In this document: positions 3,934-31,203 of the stretch, piece after piece
How positions within the stretch are numbered: position 1 is the first letter of the stretch
Layout: every line of letters starts with the position of its first letter
Assembly: GCA_944323345.1 (NCBI GenBank)
Contig: CALUSC010000015.1
Coordinates: 1-41,350, forward strand
Reading direction: 5' to 3'
Origin: an uncultured Bacteroidales bacterium
GTDB lineage: Bacteria; Bacteroidota; Bacteroidia; Bacteroidales; UBA932
DNA length: 41,350 nucleotides
Translations under genes and position numbers: made by a program
The notes under the pieces: generated by a model
Databases searched by the model: none
Seen by the model: only the letters and a program-made list of their open reading frames with translations
Told to the model about the DNA's origin: nothing

Positions 3934-3947
3934 AACTCAATCTCCTA

Positions 3948-4922: not shown

Positions 4923-5001
4923 TTCTTTTCTGTTTTAAGAACCGGCACATATCCATGTGCCCGATATCCATTATTATTAATATTAAATGTATAGTCTCTT
5001 G

Positions 5002-5271: not shown

Positions 5272-5283
5272 ACCAGTTCTCCT

Positions 5284-6203: not shown

Positions 6204-6214
6204 AATGATTTCAA

Positions 6215-6580: not shown

Positions 6581-6582
6581 TG

Positions 6583-6837: not shown

Positions 6838-6849
6838 CGGACTGAGTTT

Positions 6850-7044: not shown

Positions 7045-7058
7045 TTTTTCTCCTTTAA

Positions 7059-7478
7059 TTATTCAACATAATCTCTACGTACGACAAACTTTGTAGTGAC
7101 CGGAAGTTTCTGGGCACCGAGGCGGAGAGCCTCTTTTGCGATTTCCATAGGAACACCTTCAGCCTCGATAAGTACACGCCCTGGAGTAACCGGACATACG
7201 AAGCCCTCAGGGTTACCCTTACCTTTACCCATTCGCACTTCGGCAGGCTTCTTCGTATAAGGCTTGTCCGGGAAAATCCTGATCCAGATCTTACCCTCAC
7301 GCTTCATATAACGCACAACAGCCTGACGCGCAGCCTCGATCTGGCGGCCGGTAAGCCAGCAATTTTCCAGTGTCTTGATGCCGAATGAACCGAACACAAG
7401 CTGGTTGCCCCTCTGGGCAAGGCCTTTCATGCGGCCTTTCTGCTGCCTTCTAAATTTTGTTTTCTTCGGTTGTAACAT
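7059..7478 (-). CDS. rplP: 50S ribosomal protein L16 (first gene of this ribosomal run)
   Basis: L16 shapes the A site of the 50S subunit. The 139-residue protein shows [20 protein letters not shown], the L16 signatures [20 protein letters not shown] and [20 protein letters not shown], and a normal length. In nearly all bacteria rpsC lies directly upstream. Here the upstream 300 bases are non-coding and hold a promoter, then a gene on the opposite strand. rplP therefore starts this operon, which is unusual. Confidence 0.97.
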
Positions 7479-14149: not shown

Positions 14150-15940
14150 TCAGGAATTTAAAGCAGAATGTATCCTTTCAGCCAGCTCTTTCCCTACCAG
14201 GCCGGACAGGTCCTCCACCGACGCCGCAGCTATCCTGGCGACACTTCCATAATGAAGGATAAGCCTCTGCTCAGTCTTCTCCCCGACACCTCTGATCTCC
14301 CTGAGCGCGGACTGTATCTGAGCCTTGCTTCTGAGATTCCTGTGGTGCGTAATGCCGAATCTGTGCGCTTCGTCACGGATATGCTGCATAAGCTTCAATG
14401 CCTGTGAATTCCTGTCCAGGAACAGCGGATGCGGGTCTCCCAGCCGGATAATCTCCTCGAAACGTTTGGCCAGCCCCACAACAGTCAGGCTGTCGGCTAT
14501 ACCCAGCTCATACAAAGCCTCATACGCACTTCCGAGCTGCCCTTTACCGCCATCGATGACTATCAGCTGTGGCAGATCGTCAGGAGCTTCACGCAGCATT
14601 CTGGAATAACGCCTGTTCACGATTTCTTTCATGGAGGCATAATCGTTCGGACCGACTACAGTCTTGATATTGAAGTGTCTGTAATCTTTTTTGGAAGGAG
14701 CGCCGTCCCTGAACACTACGCATGAAGCTACAGGATTGGTCCCCTGTATGTTGGAATTGTCGAAACACTCTATATGCCTCGGAAGCTGCGGCATTCCCAG
14801 GGCGGACTGCAATTCTTCCATGACCTTTCTGCGGAACTCGTCGGGATCCGTATGCTCTTTCTGCTTCAGGGCATTGAAACGCATCTCCTTGGCATTCTTC
14901 AGACTAAGCTCCATAAGAGCCAGCCTGTCGCCCTTTACCGGCAGACGGAACTCCACACCGGAAATCTCGACATCCGGCTTGAACGGGACCAGGACCTCAT
15001 GCGACAGATTCCCGAACTTGGACTGTATTTCCGCTATGAACATACCAAGGACAGCCGGATGGTCCTCCTCTATATTCATCCTGAACCCCAGGTTCAATGA
15101 CTGTATCACGGCCCCGTCCCTCAGCCTCATGAAATTTCCGTACGCTTCATTGGAATCGAATACCAGCGAGAATACATCCAGACTCCCCATGACGCTGTTC
15201 ACGATAAGAGACTTGCTGTAATGCTTCTCAAGAGATGCCATCTTCTTCCTGAACTCCTCGGCAGCCTCGAAATCGAGCCTTTCCGCAGCCTCCGCCATCT
15301 GCTCCTCAAGATGTCTGATCATTTCCCTGCCGCCACCTTTCAGGAGTCGGACAATATCCTCTATATTGTCGTTGTACTCTTTCACCGAGATACCGCCCAC
15401 ACAACATCCACGGCACCTTCCGATATGGAAATTCAGGCATGGACGGAACTTTTTGCGCAGGACCGACTCTCCGGTAATCTTAAGATTGCAGCTTCGCAGA
15501 GGGTACAGTTCGGAAAACAGTTCAAGAAGATTCCTCGCATGCATTACGGAACTGTACGGGCCGAAATATCTCGACCCGTCCCGCACCATCCTCCGGGTCA
15601 GATAGACCTTTGGAAATTCATCCGCACTTACACATATCCAGGGATATGTCTTGGAATCTTTCAGAAGGATATTGTACTTCGGCTTGTACTGTTTTATAAG
15701 GTTGTTTTCCAGCAGAAGGGCATCCGCTTCCGTATCGACTACCGAATACTGGGCATCGGCGATTTTGGATACCATTATGGCAGTCTTGCGCGTAAGCCTC
15801 TCAGGGGAAACGAAATACTGGGCCACCCTCTTGTGCAGATCCTTGGCCTTCCCGACATAAATGACATTCCCCTCGGCGTCATAATACCTGTAGACGCCGG
15901 GGGAATGAGGAAACAATGATATTTTCTCCTTTACCGTCAA
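14150..15940 (-). CDS. uvrC: excinuclease ABC subunit C
   Basis: UvrC makes the two incisions in nucleotide excision repair. The 596-residue protein has the N-terminal GIY-YIG nuclease (GVYRYYDAEGNVIYVGKAKD), a Cys-rich segment (FHIGRCRGCC), a UVR domain near residues 205-240 (EAAERLDFEAAEEFRKKM), the RNase H-like C-terminal nuclease (IECFDNSNIQGTNPVASCVV; IVIDGGKGQL), and a C-terminal helix-hairpin-helix pair (LREIRGVGEKTEQRLILHYG). The length is normal. Its ATG overlaps the stop of the S46 peptidase gene (ATGA), so a repair gene is coupled to the end of a TonB/peptidase operon. Confidence 0.96.
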   Translation of the reverse strand: MTVKEKISLFPHSPGVYRYYDAEGNVIYVGKAKDLHKRVAQYFVSPERLTRKTAIMVSKIADAQYSVVDTEADALLLENNLIKQYKPKYNILLKDSKTYPWICVSADEFPKVYLTRRMVRDGSRYFGPYSSVMHARNLLELFSELYPLRSCNLKITGESVLRKKFRPCLNFHIGRCRGCCVGGISVKEYNDNIEDIVRLLKGGGREMIRHLEEQMAEAAERLDFEAAEEFRKKMASLEKHYSKSLIVNSVMGSLDVFSLVFDSNEAYGNFMRLRDGAVIQSLNLGFRMNIEEDHPAVLGMFIAEIQSKFGNLSHEVLVPFKPDVEISGVEFRLPVKGDRLALMELSLKNAKEMRFNALKQKEHTDPDEFRRKVMEELQSALGMPQLPRHIECFDNSNIQGTNPVASCVVFRDGAPSKKDYRHFNIKTVVGPNDYASMKEIVNRRYSRMLREAPDDLPQLIVIDGGKGQLGSAYEALYELGIADSLTVVGLAKRFEEIIRLGDPHPLFLDRNSQALKLMQHIRDEAHRFGITHHRNLRSKAQIQSALREIRGVGEKTEQRLILHYGSVARIAAASVEDLSGLVGKELAERIHSALNS

Positions 15941-18180
15941 TTCATTCCTATCTCATCGAGAATATAATCCATTCCGGCATATCTGTCCAGAACCCACAGT
16001 ACATATCTGATATCCACGCAGACGCACTTGGTATATCCGTCGACATAATATACGTCGGAAGCCAGAGACTCCTTGTTCCCGTCGAATGCCAGGCCGATGA
16101 GCTCTCCTTTCGCATTCATGACAGGAGAACCGGAATTTCCTCCTGTGATGTCGTTATCAGTCAGGAAATTCACATACATGCTTCCGTCCTTGTCTGCCCA
16201 GCGGCCCCAGTCAGCCTCTTCCAGAAGTTCTTTCTGTCTGTCTTTCAGTCCGAACTCATATACGGAAGGATCGTATTTTTCGAGGATACCTGCAGTCGTG
16301 GACCTCCAGGACCAGGTAACGGCATCATAAGGCTCTATGTCGCCGACCGTCCCGTACGTTATCCTCATGGTGGAGTTCGCATCAGGATACTGTGCCAGAC
16401 CGTCCTCCACAGACTTGCGGTATCTGGCATGCGTGTATTCCCTGTCCAGTGACGATATAGAAGGGGCCCCCTCGACGGCTGCCACACGCCTGTTCAGCGT
16501 GATTATCCTGATATCCTGATAAAAACGGAACAGAGGATCTGCAAAATATTCGTCGAGAGTATGTTCCGCCCCGATAAATTCCTCAAGTCTCGCCCTGTCC
16601 GTAAGGAAACTGCCGTTCCAGAGATATTCAGTCATGGCGTCATAATCGCATTGCCCGTCAGGGCACGAATATTTTTCCAGAAGCTCTTTCTGGTATGGTC
16701 CGAGTACGGAATGGCTGATATTCTCATAGAACTCTTTCACCGAATATTTGAAAAGGTCTTTCTCGACATCCAGCACGATATTGTCATACTCGCGGAGAAG
16801 ATTGGTTTTTATCGCGTTATAATCGCGCCCGCAGAACCTGAAATGTCTGCAGCAGTTCACTTCCGCAGAGTCCGGACCGCCCGGCTGGACTGCCGTATGC
16901 ATCCGTATGCGGTTCTTTGTGAGGACTTCCCTTTTCAGAAGATTCAGACGGGAAATCATCCTGGACAGCGTGGTCCCGCGCACGAGAGTCTCCCTGTAAT
17001 AATTGATATCGCGTTCTGCATCTTCCACATCCTGATATTTCTCATTCAGCAGCGGGATGACATCTCCCCACTGCGCCTGGCGGTCGGGATCTGCATCGAT
17101 CCATGCCTGGAGTTCCTGCTCTTCAGCGGCTTTCTTGCCTATCACGTCGAACCTGCGGATATTCTTTTCCTTGCCGCAGTTCAGTTCCTGTACATTGCTC
17201 AGACTGAAGTAATAATCCGAATACTTGAGCCTTATGGCAGGATCGGCATTCATCCACCTGTTTACGATGGCCATCTGTTCGCCGCGGATTCTGTTCGAAA
17301 TCGGCAGTGTGATATTCTCGTCGAAACTCACTTCGGCAGATGAACTGTACCTGTTCGTACGTCCGGGATAACCGATGACCATAGTGAAATCCCCCGGCTT
17401 GTACCCGTCAGTGGAAACAGTCAGTCTGGCTTCAGGTTTCAGAGGAATATTCTGTCCGTCATATTCAGCAGGAGAACCGTCCGGAGCCGTATAAATACGG
17501 TACATGGCGAAGTCGCATTTATGCTGAGGCCATTCCCAGTTGTCTATGTCACCGCCGTAAGCAGCGAACGACACCGGAGGAGCAGCCACCAGCCTGATGT
17601 CGGAATATACCTTGTAGAACATCATATAATATTTCTCCCCTCCCCACATCGAAGACAGAGAAGCCTCCAGTCCGTCAGCCCCGTCGGAATATTTCTTTTC
17701 CATCAGGAAAGTGATCTTCCTCATACCGAAAGGCTTGCCCTGCTTCCGCAGATCTTCCTGCATGGCCAGGACCTCGTCAGTCACATCGAGGACCTTCTTC
17801 AGGAAATACATGTTCTTTCCCGGAATCGGAATCTCTTCATCGCGGGACAATGCCCAGAAACCGTCTTCAAGATAGTTTTTCTCGTCCGTACTCAGGGCAT
17901 GTACGTCACCGTAAGCACAATGATGGTTCGTAATCACAAGGCCTTCATCGGATATGACGCTGCCGGTACAGCCGAAATCGAGGGAAACGACGGCATCCGA
18001 AATGGTCGCACCCCCGGCATCGGCGTTATAAATCTCGTTAGCCGAAAGTTTCAGCCCGCGCTTTTTCATCTGCTTTTCGAGAGCCTTGTCTATACCGTTT
18101 ATCATCCACATGCCCTCGTCTGCCCAGGACAATGTCAGTCCCAGGCAGAAGACGGCCAATACAGATATTATTCTTTTCAT
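15937..18180 (-). CDS. S46 family dipeptidyl-peptidase, DPP7-like
   Basis: S46 enzymes remove dipeptides from the N termini of peptides in the periplasm and feed amino-acid fermentation in Bacteroidota. The 747-residue protein has a signal peptide (MKRIISVLAVFCLGLTLSWA) and a chymotrypsin-fold catalytic set: His in TNHHC (86 or 87), Asp in the DNWEWPQHKCDF block (near 223), and Ser683 in GGNSGSPV. The residue 18 positions after the serine, which sets specificity in P. gingivalis DPP7 (Gly) versus DPP11 (Arg), is Gly701 (AFDGN), favouring DPP7-type preference for hydrophobic residues. It starts 1 base after the polyferredoxin stop. Confidence 0.93.
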   Translation of the reverse strand: MKRIISVLAVFCLGLTLSWADEGMWMINGIDKALEKQMKKRGLKLSANEIYNADAGGATISDAVVSLDFGCTGSVISDEGLVITNHHCAYGDVHALSTDEKNYLEDGFWALSRDEEIPIPGKNMYFLKKVLDVTDEVLAMQEDLRKQGKPFGMRKITFLMEKKYSDGADGLEASLSSMWGGEKYYMMFYKVYSDIRLVAAPPVSFAAYGGDIDNWEWPQHKCDFAMYRIYTAPDGSPAEYDGQNIPLKPEARLTVSTDGYKPGDFTMVIGYPGRTNRYSSSAEVSFDENITLPISNRIRGEQMAIVNRWMNADPAIRLKYSDYYFSLSNVQELNCGKEKNIRRFDVIGKKAAEEQELQAWIDADPDRQAQWGDVIPLLNEKYQDVEDAERDINYYRETLVRGTTLSRMISRLNLLKREVLTKNRIRMHTAVQPGGPDSAEVNCCRHFRFCGRDYNAIKTNLLREYDNIVLDVEKDLFKYSVKEFYENISHSVLGPYQKELLEKYSCPDGQCDYDAMTEYLWNGSFLTDRARLEEFIGAEHTLDEYFADPLFRFYQDIRIITLNRRVAAVEGAPSISSLDREYTHARYRKSVEDGLAQYPDANSTMRITYGTVGDIEPYDAVTWSWRSTTAGILEKYDPSVYEFGLKDRQKELLEEADWGRWADKDGSMYVNFLTDNDITGGNSGSPVMNAKGELIGLAFDGNKESLASDVYYVDGYTKCVCVDIRYVLWVLDRYAGMDYILDEIGMN

Positions 18181-18181
18181 A

Positions 18182-20197
18182 TTACTTCTCGACAGGTTTT
18201 ACAATACCCTTCTTTTCGAAACCGATCTTTGCCGGAGTCTCGCGTACATCATCCTTTGCATAGGTGATATACCATGTCTCCTGCGTCATCTGTTTCCAGA
18301 GTTCATCCTCGGTCATCGGCTCGGCATAGCGGATCCTGATGGCAGGAACCAGATCCTCGTTCAGCACGAGATAAATGCCGATGATACCGTCGTTCTTCGA
18401 CAAATGATTGCTAAGATACGGCATATTTCTGAGAATAATAGGCTTTTCATAGTTATGATCGGCTATTTCGTAGAAATATTGCGGCACGCCCTCATATTTC
18501 TCCACCCGGCTCTTGAACTCAGCCTTGAACGGATTGAAAAGCATGCGTATCAGATCTTCCGTAGGAATATAGCTGACAGTGTCTTCCATATCCACGAATT
18601 CATAATCCACCTCAGTATCCTTGGTCCCGCCGCCATGAACAGGCATCGAGAGGACTTTCATTTCGACCACATCCCTGAACCAGTCGCGGTCCAGGTTTTC
18701 GGAAGGGTCCAAATAGACATGGACAATGAGAGGGCAGGCGAATTCGGAAGTCAGCCCGTAAATTTTCTTTCCGGTCAGCCTCATCTGAAGACCGAGATAA
18801 TTAAGATCCATCTTGTCATACATCTTCTCAGTCCTGATAGTGAGAACCTTCACACTGTCGACTACTGCCGGGTCAGGAGTATTCACTCTGAATTTGGAAG
18901 GGACAAAGATATTTTCCAGAATCTTTTCAGGCGTAATCCTGGCAGGATCGTATGTAACGATGGCATAATGATGGTTTACGTATGTCCTTACTCCGTAAAT
19001 TCCGGGTATCTTCTGCAGTTTCGCCTTGAAAGCCATGGAACTGCCGAAACATTTTACAGAACGCAGACCGTCTATTCTGGTCTCTGCCAGAGTTTCAGGA
19101 TCTATAAGCCGGGTTACGGTGCCGTCTTCAGCGACAGATTCTATTCCCCACTGCTCATCGATCGTAGGCAGTTCGAACTTGTTCCCTATCCACATGCCCA
19201 GGATTATGAGCAGCACAGCAAGAATCGCAGGAAGGAATCTTCCGAAGCCGGATTTGTTCTTCTGGCATGCGCCGATATGAAGCGCATCAGTCGGACAGAC
19301 AGCCACACATTCGCCGCAAAGCGTACAGTCTACGGAATTCAGTCTTCCGCCGCTCAAGGCATCCACATCGATACCGTATGGACATTTCTTGTTGCAGATT
19401 CCGCAGTGGGTACATGAACTTGCCGTCTTTATAACGTTAAGTATCTGATATTTAGGTTTTCTGTTCAGGATTTCGAGCAAATATCCTGCAACACAGAACA
19501 CTGCCAGAAGCACCCACCACGGGATGTTTGCGCCCAGCAGATCCAGAATCCACCACAGGCCAAAGAGGACAATAATCCATATCCAGAACTTGAGAGAGTT
19601 CGAAATCGCACCGAGCGGACACAGATATTTGCACCAGAACATGTTTATGACCAGTCCGCCAAGCACGAGGAGAACGATAGTCACGATGGACATCCAGAGC
19701 GTAATTTCTCCCTGGAAACCTGTAGCTGCCGCATAATACGGATCCAGATTCTTGCAGAACAGCTCGCTCGCGGTAGCTGTCATATAGAATATCCAGAATA
19801 CGAGGCCGTACTTGAAAATTCTCAGGACAGAGTCGGCCACAGAACCGTTCCTGACTGTGATGCCTTTTATGTTCAGGCTGTTGCGGAGCTTTATCAGCAA
19901 GTCCTGGACAGTCCCCAGCGGACAGATATAGCCGCAGAACAGTTTGCTGAAAAGCACAACTGCCGCAGCAAGCATGATTCCCATCATTATCTGCAGGGAA
20001 CTCATGCTGCACGGAAGCGATCCGTTTACGAAAAACGTGGTCAGAGCCTCCAGACCGCCCATAGGGCAATATGCTTCCGGGTCAGCCGGCTCCTTGCTCG
20101 GTATGATTCCAGTCAGGAACACTACCAGGGCCGCAAGCACTCCCCACTGAAGGAGATATTTCGGCCAATTCTTGATGATGGTGGATTTTTTTGCCAT
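18182..20197 (-). CDS. membrane polyferredoxin (NapH/CcoG-like) with C-terminal HMA-like domain
   Basis: This 671-residue protein is a putative inner-membrane electron-transfer component. The N-terminal half has about five to six membrane segments with the NapH/NosR-type motifs FCGYICPLG (C88, C92) and WCKYLCPLG (C189, C193). Two [4Fe-4S] ferredoxin motifs follow (C262-C265-C268-C272 and C291-C294-C297-C301), then another membrane segment near 322-338. Residues about 376-435 look like a heavy-metal-associated (HMA) domain, but the metal-binding CxxC is reduced to a single C383. The rest has no family I recognise. A metal or haem reductase role, by analogy with the cupric reductase CcoG, is inference. 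It lies 22 bases after the M16 gene. Confidence 0.8.
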   Translation of the reverse strand: MAKKSTIIKNWPKYLLQWGVLAALVVFLTGIIPSKEPADPEAYCPMGGLEALTTFFVNGSLPCSMSSLQIMMGIMLAAAVVLFSKLFCGYICPLGTVQDLLIKLRNSLNIKGITVRNGSVADSVLRIFKYGLVFWIFYMTATASELFCKNLDPYYAAATGFQGEITLWMSIVTIVLLVLGGLVINMFWCKYLCPLGAISNSLKFWIWIIVLFGLWWILDLLGANIPWWVLLAVFCVAGYLLEILNRKPKYQILNVIKTASSCTHCGICNKKCPYGIDVDALSGGRLNSVDCTLCGECVAVCPTDALHIGACQKNKSGFGRFLPAILAVLLIILGMWIGNKFELPTIDEQWGIESVAEDGTVTRLIDPETLAETRIDGLRSVKCFGSSMAFKAKLQKIPGIYGVRTYVNHHYAIVTYDPARITPEKILENIFVPSKFRVNTPDPAVVDSVKVLTIRTEKMYDKMDLNYLGLQMRLTGKKIYGLTSEFACPLIVHVYLDPSENLDRDWFRDVVEMKVLSMPVHGGGTKDTEVDYEFVDMEDTVSYIPTEDLIRMLFNPFKAEFKSRVEKYEGVPQYFYEIADHNYEKPIILRNMPYLSNHLSKNDGIIGIYLVLNEDLVPAIRIRYAEPMTEDELWKQMTQETWYITYAKDDVRETPAKIGFEKKGIVKPVEK

Positions 20198-20219
20198 GGT
20201 TCAGATATTTTGATTGTTG

Positions 20220-23051
20220 TTATTCTTCACGGTATATTGAAACGAACTTGTCGCCTTTTACAAGTCCGGCGGCGAATTTCCGGATATCCGATGCGGAAAC
20301 GCTGCCGATCGCCGCTTCATAATCATAATCATACGGTACGCCATAGACGACGTGGTTTCTCAGTTCCGTATTCCGTGCCCTCAGAGAATTCTTGTCGGCC
20401 GCTTCCTTTTCTCCCCTGTGCTTTACGAGATACTTCGCGGCTTCTTCCATCTCCTGGCCGGAAGGCCCTTCAGACGCCATTTCCGCCATGACATCAGCGA
20501 CATCCTGCACCAGTATGTCGATCATTTCCGGCCTGGTCTGAAATGCCACCACGGATTCGAAAGCGCCTCCGGATGAATATGGGATATCAGTACCGAAACT
20601 TACATGATATGTTCCGCCGCGGGCCTCGCGTATCTGGTTGAGATACCTGGCAGACATCATATAATCCAGCATCTCTATCATTGCCAGATTTTCGGGATCG
20701 AGACTGGTTTTCCCTTTGAAATAATAAGTGACATTGCCTTTCGGCACAGTTTCCACATCATAGCTGCGGTCGAACACCACTTCCCCTTCATATACCGGGA
20801 GAGGCGCCTCCGTCTTATCCTTTTCCACATTATATTCACCGGACAACGACGCTATATATTTTTTCACCAGAGATTCTATCTCGGTCTTGTCCAAATCGCT
20901 GGAAATATATACGGTCATATTGGAGAAATCGCCGAATGTCCTGTGGAACATATCCCGGACAAACTCCATGTCGACCGCTTCCACGGCCGAACTGTCCACT
21001 TCCGCAAGCCACGGATGACTGCCATACCTGAGATCCTTCACCTCCCTGGCGAACAGATCGGAATTCTCCTTCTTCTTTCCGAGGAAACGGAGATTATCCT
21101 GCTTCATTTTCTCCAGGGCTGACTCTTTCGCAAAATACGGATCGGTCAGAAGGCCGTAAATCATCCGGAAACCGGTTTCCAGGCTTTTCCTGTCCGCCGA
21201 CAATGAAACAGACGCCTCCGTCTGTCCCAGATCGATGGAAATATTGGCTCCTGCACACTCAGGGCTGTTCCTTATCTCGACAGCATCGTAGCTGCCGAAA
21301 CCCGTATATCTGAAAATATAATTGGAAGCAAATCTGGCTGACGGCACGTCTTCCGGAGAATAAACCTTGTAACCGGTATCGAAAAACATCATCATGGACA
21401 GATGCGTATCCGACTTTACCGGCTCCGACGGGGTCCAATACACGGTAGCACCATTGCCCAGCTCCCATTTTTCGCTTCCGGTCCCCTTCACTGGAGAGAC
21501 CTTGTCCACGGAGCCCGGAGCCGGACTGTAATCCATGCTGATCTTTTTGAAACTCAAGTATGCCGGCTGAATATCCTTTGCGGAAGTCTCCGCAATGATT
21601 TCCTTCATCCTTTCGGGCGCCGGAAGTCCTGCTTCCTCTTTTTCATTCACACACCAGGAATATATCTGCTCGCAGTCGGAAAACATTTTTTTCGGGTAAT
21701 CCTTCACGTCATCGATAGTCATTCCCCCGATAATCATCTTCTGTATCCCTTTCAGTTCATACGGATCGGCTGCGGCATATCCCCGCAGGAAATTCTCAGT
21801 ATATGCATCCACGATCTGCCTGTTCTTGATATCTGACGGGAAAATCTCGACATTCAGGCGGTTTTTCTTCATCACCTTGAATTTTGCCGCCTCGAATTCA
21901 TCCTCCGATATGCCATACCTCAACATCCTTTCCGCCGCTTCCACATAAAATGCCAGCGCTGCCTCCGCATTCGAAAGGTCTTTCATGGCAAGAGTGACAA
22001 GTGAAATATAAAAATCATCGCTGTACGGGCTTGTCACCATGACGCCGGAAGACAGAGGACTGCCTTTCTTCCTGGCATCCTTGCTGATTCTTTCGTCAAA
22101 CACAGTCGTTATGATCTGCCTGGCATAAAGGTCCTTGTAAAACGCCTCGGTATTTCGGACCTCCCGCGACGGGAACGGCTGCTTGTTGATGACTTTCAGG
22201 ACATAATACTTTATCTGAGGGTCCAGCATATTCTCAAAAAGCGGCTCCTGCAGTGCCGGGACAGTATAAGTTTCCTTAGGCTGGGGATTCTCTGCGGCAG
22301 GAATATCCGAAAACATTTCACGCACCTTTTGCTCCATAGCCTCTGCATCGAAATCCCCGACTACTGCTATAGCCTGCAAATCAGGACGATACCACCTGTG
22401 ATAAAAATCCAGTATCTCGTGAGGCTTGAAACCGTTTATGACTTCAAGAGTTCCGAGAACAGTCCTTTCGGTATGCTTCGCACCTTTATAAATCAGGTCA
22501 TTCTGCTTGGTCATCATCCTCATCAGCGGCTCATCCTTCCTGCGCCATTCCTCGCTTATCACACCCCTCTCGGCATCGAGAGCCTCCGGTTCGCAGGATA
22601 TGTCGCACGACCAGTCGTGCAATATCATCAGCACCGAATCCACGAATGATTCACGCACCAGCGGCACAGACGAAATATTATAGACAGTCTCCGTCCTGTT
22701 CGTATAGGCATTCACATTGTACCCGAACCTGACACCGTCCTTTGCCAGGAAATTCAGGATTTCCTTATCCGGATAATGTCTGGTCCCGTTGAAGGCCATG
22801 TGCTCCAGAAAGTGGGCGAGCCCGTTCTGGTTGTCTTCCTCCTGAAGGGCGCCGACATTGTGGATAATATAAAAATCCGCACACCCTTCCGGATTGGAAT
22901 TGTGGCGGATATAATACGTCATACCATTGTCGAGCCGTCCTTTTATAAGCTGAGGGTCATCGGGGATGATATCCTGCGCCTGTGCAGGAATCACTGCCAG
23001 CACCGGCAATATTGCAGCCAGAAAGGCTGCAGCTTTGAAAACTTTTTTCAT
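20220..23051 (-). CDS. M16 family zinc peptidase (pitrilysin type), secreted
   Basis: M16 peptidases degrade unfolded peptides in a closed chamber. The 943-residue protein has a signal peptide (MKKVFKAAAFLAAILPVLA) and the inverted zinc motif HFLEH (H80, E83, H84) with the third ligand E161 in DAERGVISEEW. The second, non-catalytic M16 half follows (ELGNGATVYW to the C terminus), with RYLNQIREARGGTYHVSFGT. The length fits the two-domain periplasmic type. It lies 53 bases after the DUF6850 gene and 22 before the polyferredoxin gene, so it is part of the TonB operon. Confidence 0.94.
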   Translation of the reverse strand: MKKVFKAAAFLAAILPVLAVIPAQAQDIIPDDPQLIKGRLDNGMTYYIRHNSNPEGCADFYIIHNVGALQEEDNQNGLAHFLEHMAFNGTRHYPDKEILNFLAKDGVRFGYNVNAYTNRTETVYNISSVPLVRESFVDSVLMILHDWSCDISCEPEALDAERGVISEEWRRKDEPLMRMMTKQNDLIYKGAKHTERTVLGTLEVINGFKPHEILDFYHRWYRPDLQAIAVVGDFDAEAMEQKVREMFSDIPAAENPQPKETYTVPALQEPLFENMLDPQIKYYVLKVINKQPFPSREVRNTEAFYKDLYARQIITTVFDERISKDARKKGSPLSSGVMVTSPYSDDFYISLVTLAMKDLSNAEAALAFYVEAAERMLRYGISEDEFEAAKFKVMKKNRLNVEIFPSDIKNRQIVDAYTENFLRGYAAADPYELKGIQKMIIGGMTIDDVKDYPKKMFSDCEQIYSWCVNEKEEAGLPAPERMKEIIAETSAKDIQPAYLSFKKISMDYSPAPGSVDKVSPVKGTGSEKWELGNGATVYWTPSEPVKSDTHLSMMMFFDTGYKVYSPEDVPSARFASNYIFRYTGFGSYDAVEIRNSPECAGANISIDLGQTEASVSLSADRKSLETGFRMIYGLLTDPYFAKESALEKMKQDNLRFLGKKKENSDLFAREVKDLRYGSHPWLAEVDSSAVEAVDMEFVRDMFHRTFGDFSNMTVYISSDLDKTEIESLVKKYIASLSGEYNVEKDKTEAPLPVYEGEVVFDRSYDVETVPKGNVTYYFKGKTSLDPENLAMIEMLDYMMSARYLNQIREARGGTYHVSFGTDIPYSSGGAFESVVAFQTRPEMIDILVQDVADVMAEMASEGPSGQEMEEAAKYLVKHRGEKEAADKNSLRARNTELRNHVVYGVPYDYDYEAAIGSVSASDIRKFAAGLVKGDKFVSIYREE

Positions 23052-23104
23052 TACAGTTCAGATCCTTAAGTACAACAATAATCTCACCGGCGTCCGGGAT
23101 GGCA

Positions 23105-24715
23105 TCAGAATGCACAGCCGAGAGTGACTGTAAAGACATTCCGGAAACCGTCTGCGAGGAATTCAGGCTTTTTCAAGGTATGGTTATAGGTATCCCTTAC
23201 ATCTATGTACGCGGCAATTTTGTCGCCGAACAGTCTCGTATATCTGAAACTCAGGGTTCCGGACACTCTGGCTGCCGTATCATATTCGAAGTCGCGGTTC
23301 AGATAGTCGTCATTTGTCCTGAGATTGCTGGAAGAACTCGAAGCCAATGCCCCGTCGCTGTTCTTAGTGCCGAAACCGGTAAAATAATCAGCCGATACTC
23401 CGACGGTGAAGATATTCTTTCCTGCAGCTATATTCCTCCTGCCATGCAGGATAATGTCAATATCAGTAATATTCTGATCTCTGTAATACGGATAATATGT
23501 AGCTCTGAAAGTCTTGTACGAACCATCCGCCTCTATACCGTATTCCCATACCGGGCGATGCTGCTCTATACCGAGATATCCTGTATAAGAAAGACTGGCT
23601 TCGATATCAGTCCGTGACAGAGTTTCTCTCTGCCCGAAATACTCTACGACAGTATTCTCGCCTGGGACTGTCGTCTTTTTATAAATATTTTCATTATTGA
23701 CCAATCCGGCATATTCAGCGTAAAGGCTTATTCTGTGAAGATTATCTAGACGGCTTATATCGAGGACTCCGTTATAGCTTATGATATTTCCCCCGAATTC
23801 GCAGTAAAGGACATTCGTAGAAGCCTTTTCACCGTAAAAGCCGGTTCTCTTTTTGTAAGTCAATTCGTTAAAGAAAAGTACATTCTGACTGTTCCCGAAC
23901 TGAAGCTGCAAAGCACCGCCGTAAAACGTATTCAGCATAGGACGGTAGTCGGAAGTGGAGACATAACCGTCATCCCCGTCCAGAATTTCCACATACCCGA
24001 AATATCCTCCGAAATCGATGAAATTATAATACTGCCGGTCTGCCGTCCCGAAAGTCTTGCAGTTGAGCCGTTCGACAGTTCTTGCATATTCGAGATTTAA
24101 TCCTATTGCAAAACGGTCCGACGGCTGGAACTTCGTACCTGCCTGTAAACTGAGATCCATCCATGAAACAATCGGACGAGGGTCCTTGCGCTTCGCATAA
24201 TTTGCTGTCCCGTATTTTACATTGGCGCCTACAGACCATTTCGGACCGAAAGAATACGATATTCCGCCGAGCATATCGTACGACTCATTCGTTTTCGTAC
24301 CTGGATTGGCGTCAGTACTTTCTACGAAATTTACAGGATTATATGAGGGGTCCATAAGATAATGGCCCCCCATATTCTTCCCGTGAAAATAAGAATAAGA
24401 CAACTTCCCGTGGAAAGCTATCCGATCGGAAATCCTGACAAACGACTCCGTAAGTGCACCTGCAAGCAGACTGTTATCCGATCCCTCGACCGGAATCAGA
24501 CCTCCGTCTTCCTTGTTGAAATAAGCCTCTACGAAAGACGACCGGTCGACCTGAAGGGTCCCTATACCGGCTGCATTGGAACTGGTCAGCCACGGATTCG
24601 ATGCCTTGATGAAATCGAATTCGTAGACATTTCTCTGTGGCTGCTGGCCCCTTGAGGGCAGGCAAAAGAGAAATCCCAGGAGGAATATTGATGTGAAAGT
24701 CTTGCAGTTATACAT
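23105..24715 (-). CDS. DUF6850 family outer-membrane beta-barrel protein
   Basis: The 536-residue protein has a signal peptide (SIFLLGFLFCLPSRGQ), then alternating amphipathic strands over most of its length, and ends in phenylalanine (VTLGCAF), as outer-membrane barrels do. The early block FDFIKASNPWLTSSNAAGIG and the strands YSYFHGKNMGGHYLMDPS fit DUF6850. Its function is unknown. It follows the DUF4876 lipoprotein gene by 29 bases. The receptor, lipoprotein and barrel order suggests that they act as one outer-membrane unit (inference). Confidence 0.85.
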   Translation of the reverse strand: MYNCKTFTSIFLLGFLFCLPSRGQQPQRNVYEFDFIKASNPWLTSSNAAGIGTLQVDRSSFVEAYFNKEDGGLIPVEGSDNSLLAGALTESFVRISDRIAFHGKLSYSYFHGKNMGGHYLMDPSYNPVNFVESTDANPGTKTNESYDMLGGISYSFGPKWSVGANVKYGTANYAKRKDPRPIVSWMDLSLQAGTKFQPSDRFAIGLNLEYARTVERLNCKTFGTADRQYYNFIDFGGYFGYVEILDGDDGYVSTSDYRPMLNTFYGGALQLQFGNSQNVLFFNELTYKKRTGFYGEKASTNVLYCEFGGNIISYNGVLDISRLDNLHRISLYAEYAGLVNNENIYKKTTVPGENTVVEYFGQRETLSRTDIEASLSYTGYLGIEQHRPVWEYGIEADGSYKTFRATYYPYYRDQNITDIDIILHGRRNIAAGKNIFTVGVSADYFTGFGTKNSDGALASSSSSNLRTNDDYLNRDFEYDTAARVSGTLSFRYTRLFGDKIAAYIDVRDTYNHTLKKPEFLADGFRNVFTVTLGCAF

Positions 24716-24744
24716 TTTTCCGGATTTAATCTGTCAGATACTGG

Positions 24745-26055
24745 TTATTTCTTTATCGAAGGCACAGCTCTCTGGTGGAAATCGGCAGAGGAATTGTTCG
24801 TATCCTTGTAAATGATATGCGCTCCATTGGCTATCGACGCCTCTGCATCTATGCCGGAAGGATCAGTATTGCCATATACCTCATCGAGCATATCCGTTCC
24901 TCCTGCGTAGTTATATACCAGTTTTCCTTCGTTTTCAGGCAAAGCCTCCGTAGCCTCTTTATCCACATTTCTGTAAAGAGAATACCCTTTGTCCCCAGTC
25001 ATGTAAATCGATCCTGCATCCACTGATGCCGGAAGTCTTTTCTGGTTGTCATCTTCCTTGCCCACCTGGAAGACTTCAATACCGTCGACAGTCCACTCGG
25101 TCTTCACCTTTATGGCAGTAGTGGCCGTACCCAACGTATTGTCGGTATTGTTCGGATCTTTGACGAATGCTTCTATATCCGCATTTTCCAGAATAAAGAA
25201 AGCCGGACTGTTGACTGACATCGTCCACGCATTGGCCTTTCCGTATTTATACGTTTTCAGATAATGCGACTCGGGGATTCCGTCTGCCACGGCATATTTC
25301 GCATTGGTGTACCCTGACTCTATGTCATACATGACATAATTATCCGGACTGCTCAGATCTACGGAATTCATATAGGTTTCCGTATGGTTGATGGCACCGA
25401 ACAGGGCGACCACTATCTGAGAATATGCCGGAATCCTGACATCGGAAGTAAACCACCATACACAGTGATTTGCAGGGAGCCAGCCTTCATTGAAATATAA
25501 CGGGGTCGTACCGTCTACGATATATTTATTTGACTGACCGCTATTATACGGCAGGGCTGTAGTAAAGCCTACATCGCTTACATCGATTTCAGCATCGCTG
25601 TTATTGTACAGTATTACATAAGCGTCATTCCTGTATGCTTTCTCGCCGTTATTATCCATGCATCCTGCAAAATACAGTTCCTTGATGACAAGCTGGCTCG
25701 TCTTGGATTCAGTCAGGCTCAGCTCGAATGAATTCTCGCCGGCAGCCGACACCGTTACAGCAACATTCCCGTTATAAATGAAAATATCACCGTCCACCGA
25801 TGTCCTGTAAGAAGCAGAAGCATTATACAAGCCAGGTATTACCTTGAAAGTAGCTACACCGGCTACTGTTTTTGCCTCGTATGAAGCGGTATTGTCAGTA
25901 GTGGTAAGCGTAACCGTCACGTCGTCCTCAGCGAAAATCTCATCACCCTGCATCAAGGTAATATATATCTCAACCGGAGGATTTTCCGACTTCGGATCAC
26001 ATGATGAAGCTACAAGTGCTGCAGCTGCCATCAGAAAAACAACAATCTTTTTCAT
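24745..26055 (-). CDS. DUF4876 family lipoprotein
   Basis: The 436-residue protein begins with a lipoprotein signal (VVFLMAAAALVASSC, Cys19) followed by DPKSENPP. Next is an Ig-like or carboxypeptidase-regulatory-like domain (EDDVTVTLTTTDNTASYEAK, about residues 30-110). The main body resembles a lamin-tail-like beta domain (SQLVIKELYFAGCMDNNGEK; NDAYVILYNNSDAEIDVSD). It ends YKDTNNSSADFHQRAVPSIK. The role is unknown; as it is encoded directly after a TonB receptor it may act as a surface ligand-capture lipoprotein (inference). Confidence 0.85.
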   Translation of the reverse strand: MKKIVVFLMAAAALVASSCDPKSENPPVEIYITLMQGDEIFAEDDVTVTLTTTDNTASYEAKTVAGVATFKVIPGLYNASASYRTSVDGDIFIYNGNVAVTVSAAGENSFELSLTESKTSQLVIKELYFAGCMDNNGEKAYRNDAYVILYNNSDAEIDVSDVGFTTALPYNSGQSNKYIVDGTTPLYFNEGWLPANHCVWWFTSDVRIPAYSQIVVALFGAINHTETYMNSVDLSSPDNYVMYDIESGYTNAKYAVADGIPESHYLKTYKYGKANAWTMSVNSPAFFILENADIEAFVKDPNNTDNTLGTATTAIKVKTEWTVDGIEVFQVGKEDDNQKRLPASVDAGSIYMTGDKGYSLYRNVDKEATEALPENEGKLVYNYAGGTDMLDEVYGNTDPSGIDAEASIANGAHIIYKDTNNSSADFHQRAVPSIKK

Positions 26056-26085
26056 GTTTTGTGGATTTAGTTAAACAATATGTCG

Positions 26086-29076
26086 TCAAAATTTAAGTCT
26101 TACCGTAAGCCCGTAATAAAACTTAGGGATATATCCGTTTATAGATGAATAGTTTCCTGTCTTGGAAGAGTAGACCTGTCCGAAATTATTGAAGAAATTG
26201 TTTGCATAGAACGAAACCGATGCTATATCTCCGATTTCTTTGGTTATGCTGAAATTCATCGAAAAATAAGGAGTTATATAATCCTCCTTGAACCACCATG
26301 TAGAGGTGGTCACGTATGCCAGATTCGAAAGGTCCGCATACAGATCCCGGTCATTTTCCTTTGCCCAGACAAGTGTTTCCAGATAGTCTTTCGGGGTCGG
26401 GTCGTCAAATGATGTGAAATATTCGGGAAAGACCACCGTATATCCGCTGCCGTCATAAATGGACTGGTCAGTAAACGACAGGATATCGTTGCTATCGGAA
26501 ATCCTGTAAGAGCGGATACCGTCGGCAGATTCACTCAATGAACGGGAATATCTCAGCAAAGTGGCCTCAAGTTTCAAAGATACGATCATCCGGACTTTCG
26601 GGATATGGGTCGTCACGGTAACATTGGTGCTGAGTCTCTGTGACTCAGTCCCGTTTGAGTAGTCCCGGCCTCCGATGAAATATCCCACGTAAGGATAATG
26701 ATCATTATTTGCCGCGCCGGCTGTATTTGACGGATAATACGCTTCTATATTTTCATCAACCCCCTTGTATCCGTAAAATGACCCGTCCAGACGGATCGTA
26801 GTATTTATCGGCCTTATCCTTTTAAAATCGATGACCCATTCTACCCCATATCTTGTTATGGGGTTTATATTGTTGTCCGGAGTAGTCTGTGAAACGAACA
26901 TGTTCCTCTGCCTCGATGCGAGTTCTTCTGACGGCAGCGCGCCTGTTGCATCGGAAACAGTTACGACTCCTGTTTCCCTGTCAATGCTATAGACTCTGTT
27001 TTCAACCGGTATGGAACATGCCGCACTGGTAGAAGTATACGTATATGAGAATGGCTCAAATCCTGTACTCAGCCGGTATGCATTGACCGTTCTGTTATAG
27101 TATCCGGCAAGAGATATCTTGTACCCTGCAAGATCTATGTCGAACCCGACTTCCGTCTGCTTGTTTTTCTGCCACTGCAATTCCGGATTATACACTATCG
27201 TACGCGGCATGATATAATATGCATAACATGCCGTACCGGTAGATGATGTCGTGGAACGGAACGACTCTATCGTCGCATAAGTCGGCACGGGATAAAGAAT
27301 GGAATATGACGGAAGCTTCGCGGAAATACCCCAGCTTGCCCTCACCGACAGTTCTCTGACTGTCTTGTTCCAGCGGTCTTTCGGTGAAAATATGGTGTAC
27401 TTCATATTGAATCTCGGAGACAGGCCGGATGTCGTACCGTAAGCGGAATTGCGGATGACAGTATTGTCATTTCGTAGACCGGCGATGAGATTCAGCCGTG
27501 TCTTCCCGATAGGAATCGTAATATTTTCTTCTATATAAGCCGCTATATTGTTCATGAACGGCACGTCACAGTAACGGTATTCCCAGAAACTCGGTGCTGT
27601 AACCATATTCTCGGTGTACTGCCCTATACCGAGATTCCCGTCTGCAGACCAGTCCACTCCGACTTTCACCTTATTGTTTATCTCGCCGAACTGACGCGCC
27701 CAGTTCGCTTTAAGTTTAAGTCCGTAATTGATAGGCTTGTCATCCACACACATGGTAGTATAGCCATACCCCTTCGGGTTCAGAATTACGGCTGCATCAG
27801 GATTGTCCTCATAATACTGGCCGATAAAATAACCTTCCTCGCGGCCATGAATTGCAGGAGAATCCTGCACCCAGCTTTTACTTGCATGCTCGCGACTTAA
27901 TTTATCACTATATACGACTGAGCCGCTGAACTCGATATTGGTTATCCATTTTTTACTTAAAAGCCAGTCGAAATCGAAACTTCCTCTGAATGAATTGTCC
28001 TTTGCCGTCGTTCTGTTGTCGAGGAATGTGTCAGGGTCTGCTTTCGTATCCAAGCCGCCGAGATTCCCTGAAGCGCTGACAGAAAATCTGAGCGGAGCCT
28101 TGGCGAGAATCCCTCTGTCGAAAAGATTGCTGTACGTCAGCTGCATCTGTTTCCTGTCGTATGACGAAAAAGGAGAGCGCTGGTCTCTGGTAGCCTTCGT
28201 ATATTCCAGGCTGGCGTTGAGTATACCTTTGGAAGCCCCTGACCTTGTTTCGCCCAGACCGAATCCCTTGCTGATGGATACCTGCTTCATGTTCGGATTC
28301 GTGGACATTGTAACAGTGTACGGGGTACGCCCTTTTCTGGTATTGATTTTCACCATTCCGGAAGTCATGTCTCCGTATTCTACGGACGGAACACCCGAAA
28401 TCACCTCGATGGACTCGATATTTGTAGAGGCTATATTGTTGACGGCTGATCCGGAGACTCCGGATGTGCTGAAAGTCGCAAAACTGCCGTTATTGGACAG
28501 ACGGACTCCGTCTACTTCGACAGCCGTACCGAATGATACGTTTCCTACTTCATTTGTTCCGACTCCGGACCTGATGCTGAATACCTGGTCACTGAGCAGC
28601 GACGGATCTCTTTTTGTCACCCCCCCCGGTAACAGACTTGCAGCATCCGACACATTGATAAGCTGCACATGGTCGAGCGCCGTTCTGTCTATAGTCCTGC
28701 TGGTAGTGGCACTGTTGCTGTTGTCCTGAGCCGTAACGACGACACTGTCGAGGGTCAGATTATCGTCTGCAAGGAATATCCTGTAGTTCGTGATATCCTT
28801 GCTGACCATGATTTCTTTCGTATCGGTCACATAGCCGAGACATGATATGCTGATGGTATTCTTTCCCGGCTGGACATTCTGTATCGTAAAACGCCCCTCT
28901 CCGTCTGCTACAGCCCACTGCTCGGTAGCGGTAAGGACTACCGTAGCATATTCCACGGGTTTTCCGGTATCCTTGGACAGAACGACACCGCTGATGGAAT
29001 AGGTGGAACGATTCTGTGCATAAGACAATGCCAGGGATACCGCAAAAGACAAAAAGACTAAAAAGAACCTTTTCAT
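26086..29076 (-). CDS. TonB-dependent receptor with N-terminal carboxypeptidase-like domain
   Basis: The product is an outer-membrane active transporter of 996 residues. It has a signal peptide (MKRFFLVFLSFAVSLALSYA), a carboxypeptidase-D regulatory-like domain (about 27-105), a TonB-box-like segment LDSVVVTAQ (109-117), a plug domain with VSFGTAVEVDGVRL and SIEVISGVPSVEYGDMTSGM, and a 22-strand-type barrel ending LTVRLKF. I chose the ATG at 29076 because it gives a good signal peptide; upstream in-frame codons reach 29142 but pass through the likely promoter. The neighbours are DUF4876 and DUF6850 genes, not susD, so it is not a SusC/D pair. The ligand cannot be read from sequence. Confidence 0.93.
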   Translation of the reverse strand: MKRFFLVFLSFAVSLALSYAQNRSTYSISGVVLSKDTGKPVEYATVVLTATEQWAVADGEGRFTIQNVQPGKNTISISCLGYVTDTKEIMVSKDITNYRIFLADDNLTLDSVVVTAQDNSNSATTSRTIDRTALDHVQLINVSDAASLLPGGVTKRDPSLLSDQVFSIRSGVGTNEVGNVSFGTAVEVDGVRLSNNGSFATFSTSGVSGSAVNNIASTNIESIEVISGVPSVEYGDMTSGMVKINTRKGRTPYTVTMSTNPNMKQVSISKGFGLGETRSGASKGILNASLEYTKATRDQRSPFSSYDRKQMQLTYSNLFDRGILAKAPLRFSVSASGNLGGLDTKADPDTFLDNRTTAKDNSFRGSFDFDWLLSKKWITNIEFSGSVVYSDKLSREHASKSWVQDSPAIHGREEGYFIGQYYEDNPDAAVILNPKGYGYTTMCVDDKPINYGLKLKANWARQFGEINNKVKVGVDWSADGNLGIGQYTENMVTAPSFWEYRYCDVPFMNNIAAYIEENITIPIGKTRLNLIAGLRNDNTVIRNSAYGTTSGLSPRFNMKYTIFSPKDRWNKTVRELSVRASWGISAKLPSYSILYPVPTYATIESFRSTTSSTGTACYAYYIMPRTIVYNPELQWQKNKQTEVGFDIDLAGYKISLAGYYNRTVNAYRLSTGFEPFSYTYTSTSAACSIPVENRVYSIDRETGVVTVSDATGALPSEELASRQRNMFVSQTTPDNNINPITRYGVEWVIDFKRIRPINTTIRLDGSFYGYKGVDENIEAYYPSNTAGAANNDHYPYVGYFIGGRDYSNGTESQRLSTNVTVTTHIPKVRMIVSLKLEATLLRYSRSLSESADGIRSYRISDSNDILSFTDQSIYDGSGYTVVFPEYFTSFDDPTPKDYLETLVWAKENDRDLYADLSNLAYVTTSTWWFKEDYITPYFSMNFSITKEIGDIASVSFYANNFFNNFGQVYSSKTGNYSSINGYIPKFYYGLTVRLKF
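28620..28627 (-). repeat. G8 homopolymer inside the TonB receptor gene
   Basis: Eight consecutive G on the coding strand (eight C on the plus strand) encode part of PGGV at residues 150-153, in the plug domain. Loss or gain of one base would end the protein soon after. Such tracts are classical slipped-strand hotspots; whether this one varies is unknown. Confidence 0.9.
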
Positions 29077-29139
29077 GGATGGGGAGTTTAGCAAATTCAT
29101 TTGTTTATGCCGAGGCACAACAGTATATGTGCAGCAGGT

Positions 29140-29147
29140 CAAATATA
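29140..29147 (-). promoter_or_regulatory. -7 box of the TonB-receptor operon
   Basis: TATATTTG on the minus strand matches TAnnTTTG, 63 bases upstream of the chosen ATG at 29076. A good -33 TTTG is not visible. This supports the shorter receptor start. Confidence 0.5.
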
Positions 29148-29217: not shown

Positions 29218-29338
29218 GAGGTTGACACAAAAGGAGGAATTTCAAGGCTTGCGAAGATAAGAAAACCGCAGTGTACTGATGTACATGAGGATTTTCGAAT
29301 CGAGCGTAACGCAGAAAATACCCTTTTGAGTCGGCCTC
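29218..29338. repeat. 121-bp palindromic repeat element, full copy
   Basis: The element is bounded by imperfect 17-bp terminal inverted repeats: GAGGTTGACACAAAAGG at 29218-29234 and, inverted, GAGGCCGACTCAAAAGG at 29322-29338 (14 of 17 match). The centre is a further palindrome, TGTAC-TGAT-GTACA at 29272-29285, flanked by GAAAACC and GGATTTTC, so the whole can fold into a long hairpin. It has no ORF. A shorter, inverted relative lies at 40130-40183. It sits between the TonB operon promoter and the C69 gene's 3' end. It resembles a MITE or REP-like intergenic repeat. Confidence 0.8.
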
Positions 29339-29403: not shown

Positions 29404-31203
29404 TTAGAGACTTTTCAGGACATCGCCATGGTCACGGACTACAGCTTCTTTCCATTTGTCCGTATAACCGGGATTCGTGATGCCGTCAGGAATGCGGTCG
29501 GAATATCCGTTCGTGACAAAAGAGCCGTCCGGATTCTGGGCCTTGACGTTTCCGTCCATGAATTTCACAAGCAGGAAAGTTTCCAGGGCGACCCATTCTT
29601 CGAACACGCCCTGCGCGGTGCCGACAGAGTAGTCTGTCAGAAAATCCTTTACCTCCGTAAACGGATCCAAGACCTTCTGCACTTCGTCATTCCTCCTGAT
29701 CTGCTTCCGCGGGGTATCGAGGGCTTTCTGATACAGATCCAGAGCCTGGCTGTCTATCTCAGGAATCATTTTCATCTGGCTGTTCTCGAAATCATCAGCT
29801 TTGGCCATGACTGCAGGAGCCATGACATTGTACATTCTGTAGCAGGCATTGGCCACACGGTTGCATATCCAGAATGCGGAAGTCGGGGAATATTCGAGGA
29901 TACTGCCATTGCCCTCTGCGAAGCAGTCGGGCACCATATTAATATTAGTATATATCGGTGTCAGATATGAGGTGGCTGCATCGTCGGTGCCGAACCAGAG
30001 CAGTCCGCCTATCACGTCAGGGAGCCAGCCGCGGGACTGTCCCACGAACCAGAATCCGGTCTGCTGCGTGGCTATGGCGCGTTCGTTCACGTAAATCTGT
30101 CCCTCATACTCGAAATCCATCGGTCTCCAGCGGTAAGGGAGGGCATTGCCACCGGCACCTATATCGGTGGTCATGTCCATAGGGGTGCCTTCGAAATGGT
30201 CGCGCATCACGTCTGCCACATCTTTCATGGTGAGTTTGCGCGAAGGCTTCACGAAAAGAGGGAAACGCTTCGATGCGTCATATCCCATGGCATAGTCGAT
30301 ATATTCGTATGCATCTACGGTCGCTTCTTTTCCGGTCTCGTCCACGAATGTGAACTGTCCGTCGCAGAGAATGTTGAATGCTGACCAGGCACGGGCTTCA
30401 CAGCCGCGCATAGCTCCGAAGTTCAATGGGTTATACGCATCGCAGAAGCTGAAATCCTCGTCTTTTCCGTCAAAATAGCCCATCTCGCGGGCAAAGGAAA
30501 TCACGTCCGGGGCATAGAGGCAGTTCTCCGGATCGTCGAGTGGGAAGGTGCTGATTCTGGACTGGTTGGCATGTGCGCAGATGTAGCCTTCCGGAAGCCT
30601 CCTGGCCACCCAGACTATACCTCTGTTCGCATTCTGTCCGTTTTTCTCCTTGAAGCCTTTCCCAATGAGGTCCATGACCCAGACTTCATCCTTGTCCGCG
30701 ATGGAGAATGATTCTCCGCTGGAATAGTAGCCGTATGTATTGGCGAGGTCCACTATGATGTTTATGGCTTCCCGTGCAGTCCTGGCTCTCTGGAGAGTGG
30801 TATATATGAGCGAGCCGTAGTCCATAATGCCGGTAGAGTCGAAAAGTTCGGCCCTGCCTCCGAAGGTGGATTCTCCGATGATGAGCTGATGCTCGTTCAT
30901 GTTACCGACTGTCTGGTAAGTGTATGGGACCTGAGGAATCTTTCCGAGGTACTTTCCTGTGTCCCATTCGCGGATTTCCAGCATTTCGCCTTTTTCATGA
31001 CGGGCTGCAGGGCGGAAATAGAGTTCTCCGAAAAGGGTGTGTGAGTCTGCCGCGTATGAGACCATGCATGAGCCGTCTGCAGTGGCTCCTTTTGAAACGA
31101 GGACATTCGTACAGGCATCCGCGTCTTGTGCCGCTGACAGGCATATAAGTGCGGCCGCAAAAGCGGCAAGCGCCGGGGAGATGAATGATGTTTTCTTGAC
31201 CAT
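29404..31203 (-). CDS. C69 family dipeptidase, secreted
   Basis: C69 peptidases are N-terminal-nucleophile hydrolases that cleave dipeptides. The 599-residue protein has a signal peptide (ISPALAAFAAALICLSAAQDADA) followed at once by the nucleophile C31 in ACTNVLVSKGATADGS. Cleavage before C31 would expose the needed N-terminal cysteine. Further family blocks are NEHQLIIGESTFGGRAE, REAINIIVDLANTYGYYSSG and VWVARRLPEGYICAHANQSR. The residues before the Cys (ADA) do not form a lipobox. It is a single-gene unit with its own promoter. With the S46 and M16 peptidases it suggests a peptide-using lifestyle. Confidence 0.93.
   Translation of the reverse strand: MVKKTSFISPALAAFAAALICLSAAQDADACTNVLVSKGATADGSCMVSYAADSHTLFGELYFRPAARHEKGEMLEIREWDTGKYLGKIPQVPYTYQTVGNMNEHQLIIGESTFGGRAELFDSTGIMDYGSLIYTTLQRARTAREAINIIVDLANTYGYYSSGESFSIADKDEVWVMDLIGKGFKEKNGQNANRGIVWVARRLPEGYICAHANQSRISTFPLDDPENCLYAPDVISFAREMGYFDGKDEDFSFCDAYNPLNFGAMRGCEARAWSAFNILCDGQFTFVDETGKEATVDAYEYIDYAMGYDASKRFPLFVKPSRKLTMKDVADVMRDHFEGTPMDMTTDIGAGGNALPYRWRPMDFEYEGQIYVNERAIATQQTGFWFVGQSRGWLPDVIGGLLWFGTDDAATSYLTPIYTNINMVPDCFAEGNGSILEYSPTSAFWICNRVANACYRMYNVMAPAVMAKADDFENSQMKMIPEIDSQALDLYQKALDTPRKQIRRNDEVQKVLDPFTEVKDFLTDYSVGTAQGVFEEWVALETFLLVKFMDGNVKAQNPDGSFVTNGYSDRIPDGITNPGYTDKWKEAVVRDHGDVLKSL

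Follow-up and report, generated by a model that had tools for sequence, protein, structure and literature searches.

A modular TonB receptor, DUF4876 and DUF6850 operon with candidate genes for processing metal-bearing polypeptides in an uncultured Bacteroidales bacterium

Two kinds of described system come close to a six-gene run that we analysed in an uncultured Bacteroidales bacterium of the UBA932 family (assembly GCA_944323345.1, 2.1 Mb and 88% complete; contig CALUSC010000015.1, covered over its whole 41,350 nucleotides and hereinafter designated the window). The run encodes a TonB-dependent receptor, a DUF4876 lipoprotein, a DUF6850 barrel, an M16 protease, a membrane 4Fe-4S protein and an S46 dipeptidyl-peptidase; it and its relatives are hereinafter designated the cassette. 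The first kind is the Fus system: import by a receptor plus an M16 protease is known in Proteobacteria, Fus clusters pair the receptor FusA with FusC, an M16 protease, and multiple Fus clusters without FusC hold a cytochrome c peroxidase gene, proposed to release the cofactor by reduction (PMC6793856). The second kind has a TonB receptor beside DUF4876. Iron depletion raises Bacteroides thetaiotaomicron BT3625-33 (receptor, two DUF4876 proteins, PepSY, ABC and DUF4857) 37-128-fold, BT1933-39 (with a HEAT-repeat protein) 3.5-7.4-fold and Porphyromonas gingivalis PG1019-22 21-215-fold (PMC10434189); a P. gingivalis DUF4876 gene is among those whose expression falls most when haemin is in excess (log2 -5.42; PMC10470040), and PG_1019-1020 rise in the comparison of PMC10101095. 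The three DUF4876-receptor loci that we found in print are all iron-responsive, and iron is therefore favoured here by kinship. A preliminary description of the window had called its six genes a candidate undescribed system; with iron-responsive DUF4876-receptor loci (PMC10434189) and receptor-plus-M16 import (PMC6793856) already in print, that word does not wholly hold.

All six genes lie on the minus strand, in the transcription order receptor, DUF4876, DUF6850, M16, 4Fe-4S protein and S46, with intergenic gaps of 30, 29, 53, 22 and 1 bases. The open reading frames, together with a Pfam scan of ten window proteins that included the entire run, bear out the families, the coordinates and the gaps of 1-53 bases that had been described. 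SusD, said earlier to be absent, has no match among the ten proteins scanned, so that the SusC/SusD pair of a Sus-type polysaccharide utilisation locus was not found. The receptor (26086..29100; CarboxypepD_reg and plug domains, the plug scoring 33.1 bits against a Pfam cut-off of 23.9) occupies an open reading frame of 26086-29142, in which an ATG at 29100 or 29076 is a likelier start than the TTG at 29142, an unlikely one. Directly downstream, as in the iron-responsive loci, stands the DUF4876 lipoprotein (24745..26055; 71.8 bits, cut-off 27.9), which is homologous to the solved structure 4q1z and whose Cys19 is invariant in 55 of 55 aligned sequences. DUF6850 (23105..24715; 166.5 bits, cut-off 27) is an outer-membrane barrel of about 18 predicted strands; Foldseek gives weak TM-scores (at most 0.43 among the best 50 matches listed), and VIA places it with porin-like barrels without any single close relative. 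Searches of the open PMC library turned up no mention of DUF6850, nor of the PDB codes 9LDY and 4Q1Z, whereas DUF4876 appeared in three papers and DUF4857 in one. Unlike the three printed iron-responsive loci, the window combines this core with M16, 4Fe-4S/HMA and S46 processing genes, a combination that we did not meet in the open PMC literature, where S46, M16 and a TonB receptor were not found together either.

The M16 zinc protease (20220..23051; M16_C 116.3 bits, cut-off 23) has a signal peptide recognizable by eye, an HFLEH motif at residues 80-84 belonging to an HXXEH kept in 31 of 31 aligned M16 proteins, and the two-half build of PqqL and FusC, matching the former at 1.3e-55 over residues 29-874 of 943 and the latter at 1e-39 over residues 17-881 of 943. 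Its best PDB match is 9ldy; the matched PDB entries named here as FusC are what we take to be FusC. With its PqqL/FusC match and its HXXEH, this protease sits near the receptor as in a Fus system (FusA-FusC; YddB-PqqL), and just as a redox protein may replace the protease among Fus clusters, the cassette gains and loses M16 and the 4Fe-4S protein. The differences are that the cassette belongs to Bacteroidales and Fus to Proteobacteria, that the cassette adds DUF4876, DUF6850, S46, C69 and the 4Fe-4S/HMA protein, and that neither a TonB-like FusB nor an ABC protein is encoded in the six-gene run. A phmmer search of the receptor against all PDB chains (E <= 0.01) returned 9gbc only, neither FusA nor YddB being matched, whereas Escherichia coli YddB as a positive-control query of the same file found 6ofr and the ferredoxin receptor 4zgv (5.4e-79); BLASTP of the receptor against YddB gave a best E of 0.21. 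Membership of the Fus family was rejected on this missing sequence match of the receptor, and Fus is kept as a working analogy: the cassette may work like a Fus system.

The membrane 4Fe-4S protein (18182..20197) has a NapH/CcoG-like core, in which CxxxCP motifs accompany two 4Fe-4S motifs (Fer4_5 45.8 bits, cut-off 22). It differs from CcoG in carrying predicted metallochaperone-fold, HMA-like domains at the C-terminus, which would be periplasmic, in place of an Ig-like domain, and it scores far under the NCBIfam family cut-offs (NapH/MauN 62.0 against 213.05; CcoG 17 against 316.7). The HMA match itself reaches 17.8 bits, below the Pfam cut-off of 24.8; its Cys is invariant, the motif here being CXXS and not CXXC. 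Foldseek on the protein gave no match at E <= 0.001. Its closest named relatives (L053-L058 and L060; L numbers denote fetched genomic loci of relatives, G numbers genomes and C numbers contigs) are 83-89% identical and belong to Candidatus Cryptobacteroides intestinipullorum and to uncultured Bacteroidales, so that the window probably stems from Cryptobacteroides or a near relative. Partial extra copies of the HMA-like part lie directly beside the full 4Fe-4S gene at L102 (8048-8944) and G048:C5:14585-15298. The S46 peptidase (15937..18180; 633.9 bits, cut-off 22) matches DPP7 and DPP11 over its whole length and, aligned to DPP11 and 71 relatives, keeps the catalytic His, Asp and Ser, with Gly at the S1 position as in DPP7, these being presumably the residues that matter. 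A DPP11-type enzyme was rejected on that Gly, which stands where DPP11 would have Arg; at 530.9, the score falls under the 1200 cut-off of the NCBIfam Dpp7 equivalog, and the gene is operon-linked.

Among the 149 genomes of the family, DUF4876 occurs in 82 and DUF6850 in 86. Split by eye at about E 1e-22, the DUF4876 matches form a strong and a weak-scoring group; the window copy is in the latter, which comprises 24 places once two fragments (G143:C76 and G050:C21) are set aside. Twenty of these places were fetched, the other four being the window and L099, L117 and L120 (fetched later). DUF6850 is present at all 20, and a receptor at 19, the remaining locus being truncated where its contig stops. 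What follows DUF6850 differs from locus to locus: M16 in 8 loci, S46 in 5, a run of ABC, membrane and DUF4857 proteins in 5 (assigned by similarity to L033, with PepSY_TM in two), and in the last two a transglutaminase-fold protein and a TypA-type GTPase. The ABC and DUF4857 families are shared with BT3625-33 (PMC10434189).

The 4Fe-4S protein occurs in 30 of the 149 family genomes (E <= 1e-40) and, across the order, in 41 of 393 (E <= 1e-60). Twenty-three of its 32 near-full-length matches (37 rows minus the 5 shortest) have DUF4876 or DUF6850 no farther than 9 kb away, against about one or fewer by chance, estimated from 1-3 cassettes per 2.2 Mb. The 41 loci anchored on this gene (44 named, minus 3 without a full-length 4Fe-4S protein) hold DUF4876 in 28, DUF6850 in 30, a directly adjacent S46 in 33, M16 in 15 and C69 in 20, L078 alone having none of the five; at least 5 of the 41 share contigs with earlier loci and many contigs are cut, so that the rows are not independent. 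The co-occurrence of families that the preliminary description had asked about is thus borne out: DUF4876, DUF6850, receptor, M16 and 4Fe-4S protein keep company in several genera, two Butyricimonas genomes among them. The operon is real and conserved, and its build is modular, an uptake cassette with exchangeable processing genes. The fixed six-gene system described before was rejected, since many cassettes lack one or another of M16, S46 and the 4Fe-4S protein, each of the three being absent from many.

A profile search with M16 gave 78 matches in 61 of the 149 genomes. Those of at least 1366 bits (n=11) all lie 10-212 bases from DUF6850; 7 of the 11 were profile seeds and their scores are thereby inflated. 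Of those at 721-851 bits (n=11), 9 lie 26-3001 bases from a 4Fe-4S gene and the remaining 2 at 3.6 and 7.2 kb from DUF4876, whereas only two of the 56 weaker matches (G003 and G140) are nearby, the other 54 being over 50 kb off or on a different contig (places compared by eye, four recounted by computation). In a tree, 30 of 32 cassette- or 4Fe-4S-linked proteins form one clade (support 100/99) that excludes the paralogue of the same genome (C16), the second M16 of the window and PqqL; the proteins of L148 and L157 fall outside on long branches, and the sole outside reference is PqqL (FusC being absent), itself a long branch like the window's second M16. As judged by sequence, the cassette M16 is a cassette-linked subfamily. 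The second M16 protease of the window (37246-40107, minus strand), a paralogue outside the cassette, matches PqqL and FusC as well and has its own long branch in the tree.

Some further variants were noticed. In another DUF4876 branch (L129, L131, L133 and L134), 2-3 paralogues of 620-755 amino acids, mostly HEAT-repeat proteins, stand beside the cassette, mostly after DUF6850, and BT1933-39 may be of the same kind. A C25 peptidase label for these proteins was dropped, Pfam C25 exceeding its cut-off in 1 of 7 scanned (the second gene of L131, 27.2 against 23). Elsewhere a fimbrillin-like Fib_succ_major protein follows DUF6850 (L063 8320-9906, L082 8390-9985, L090, L092, L127 and L116; by Pfam in L063 and L127, by BLAST similarity in the others). 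In L139 the receptor is separated from the 4Fe-4S gene by the gene (4693-7092) of a BNR-repeat protein that carries a type IX secretion tail, and genes of 896 and 797 amino acids take the corresponding place in L140 and L141.

We infer co-transcription of the six genes. Ahead of the receptor, a motif search found a putative -7 box, TATATTTG (29140..29147, minus strand), the consensus presumably being TANNTTTG; a spaced -33 TTG/TTTG was looked for and none was found. The minus strand of the window has 13 copies of TANNTTTG, but the gaps preceding M16, the 4Fe-4S gene and S46 have none. Two sites fall inside the run, one in the receptor gene (26582) and one in the 4Fe-4S gene (18911), and separate promoters may therefore exist. 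The single -7 box of the preliminary description thus stands as a motif without its -33 partner, and separate promoters for the peptidases find no site in the gaps ahead of them, the two internal sites notwithstanding. A conserved promoter motif was rejected, the upstream regions of ten relatives aligning poorly.

In six distinct loci outside this family (L087 at 2710-4260, L089 and L138-L141; L091 is the same contig as L138), an extracytoplasmic function (ECF) sigma factor and a membrane-anchored sensor with a conserved CxxCx3-4C tail are encoded ahead of the cassette or of the 4Fe-4S gene. The sensor is followed by a small single-helix protein, except in L140; there, gene picking yielded an open reading frame on the opposite strand in its stead. 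The sigma factor exceeds its cut-off; the sensor of L087 resembles Metal_resist and LTXXQ with scores under both cut-offs, and for that of L139 Pfam gives no match. The run of sigma factor, sensor and small membrane protein in these relatives might amount to CnrYXH-type metal signalling. The pair points to a metal, not to which.

The best-supported reading, resting on kinship and anatomy, is that the cassette imports a metal-bearing polypeptide, with iron the likeliest metal, and couples periplasmic proteolysis to metal reduction; we give it a probability of roughly 0.45. It builds on gene content, the linkage of the parts, the active-site residues of M16 and S46, the invariant lipoprotein and HMA Cys, the predicted folds, and FeoB, which is encoded elsewhere in the genome. 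A metal-bearing peptide or protein, of which the metal- or haem-bearing peptide of the preliminary description is one case, would suit the proteases and the HMA fold as well as the published iron control of related loci; we infer the ligand and its metal, and likewise localisation, the direction in which electrons flow and the order of steps. The receptor, aided by DUF4876 as a surface-type lipoprotein, would take up a metal-bearing protein or peptide, which M16 would cleave in the periplasm; S46 would release dipeptides and the C69 dipeptidase split them, while DUF6850, porin-like by predicted fold, may let small fragments through. The 4Fe-4S protein would move electrons over the inner membrane to its metallochaperone-fold domains and reduce the metal that has been released; in the likeliest case Fe(III) would become Fe(II), and FeoB could import it. 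Exclusive linkage of the 4Fe-4S protein is contradicted by its 28 most distant copies (400-640 bits; from a pool of 99 distinct full-length copies, partly fetched via DUF4876), DUF4876 being nearby in only 3 and S46 in 1. A bolder form, which we hold doubtful, is a protein-import machine of an origin distinct from that of Fus, whose cargo would be an intact metalloprotein; proteolysis of this cargo would be tied to a transmembrane 4Fe-4S electron wire with metallochaperone-fold domains at its end, one periplasmic assembly doing the cutting, the reduction of the metal and its hand-over.

The metal might instead be copper, borne by an imported peptide or protein, with the 4Fe-4S/HMA protein a CcoG-like cupric reductase. 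CcoG, to which the 4Fe-4S core is related, has Cu(II) and not Fe(III) as the substrate that it reduces in vitro, Archaeoglobus fulgidus CopZ links an HMA-type chaperone to Fe-S (both PMC7558416), and a Bordetella TonB copper importer adjoins a PepSY_TM protein (PMC13038864). The HMA-like part also resembles copper chaperones and copper ATPases, and the ECF sigma factor with its Cys-rich, LTXXQ-type sensor upstream of six distinct cassettes outside the family suits copper too. Published DUF4876 loci respond to iron, however, the motif is CXXS and not CXXC, and to our knowledge strict anaerobes of this kind have little copper demand; we think copper unlikely. Peptides could also be imported as a carbon and nitrogen source, the metal being irrelevant and the 4Fe-4S protein reducing peptide disulfides via C383, given two peptidases in the run, a third (C69) next door, and a peptidase after DUF6850 in 13 of 20 loci (14 counting the transglutaminase-fold protein). 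The HMA fold with its invariant Cys, the iron control of related loci, and loci of the same DUF4876 subfamily in which ABC/DUF4857 proteins (two also with PepSY_TM) replace the peptidases make such nutrition improbable.

A small peptide siderophore or similar carrier, cleaved by the peptidases to release its metal, would show the same anatomy as metal-polypeptide import. FusC/PqqL-type M16 proteases are described as narrow-specificity processors of a discrete imported protein (PMC6793856), which suits a protein ligand better, and we consider a peptidic metallophore decidedly improbable. That envelope genes merely share an operon, without joint function, might be read from uvrC in the same run and from a composition that differs between genomes; S46, present at 1-5 copies per genome in 131 of 149 genomes, nevertheless adjoins the 4Fe-4S gene in 33 of 41 loci, and opposite-strand arrangements (L041, L049, L052 and L103-L105) keep members of the set together. 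Chance grouping was rejected on this recurrence in several gene orders and strands, and is the least credible of the explanations.

Neighbouring features bear on the extent of the system, which the preliminary description had right for the six genes, leaving out three features at its ends. Downstream, uvrC (14150..15940, minus strand) overlaps S46 by 4 bases (15937-15940), and the transcription unit therefore probably extends past S46; uvrC also follows S46 in L051, L053-L056, L058 and L060 and is probably a hitchhiker. Directly upstream of the receptor lies the C69 dipeptidase gene (29404..31203, minus strand; Pfam), with its own TANNTTTG at 31274. Between the two, an exact-copy search of the assembly located a copy of a dispersed intergenic repeat (29266..29287, minus strand), whose 22-base stretch has 9 exact copies on 9 contigs and 14 at no more than 2 mismatches, against none for the reversed pattern as control.

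The partners of one and the same receptor-lipoprotein-barrel core are thus, depending on the locus, an ABC/DUF4857 module, HEAT-repeat proteins, or a redox protein together with peptidases, and processing genes so exchangeable make the question testable. If metal-bearing polypeptides are indeed the cargo, a function would be assigned to DUF4876, DUF6850 and the membrane 4Fe-4S/HMA protein, and the strong rise of DUF4876 loci that oral and gut species of humans show when iron is depleted would be accounted for in part. Gut Bacteroidales known chiefly from metagenomes would then gain iron (or copper) by importing and digesting protein, a route to metal so far described in Proteobacteria.

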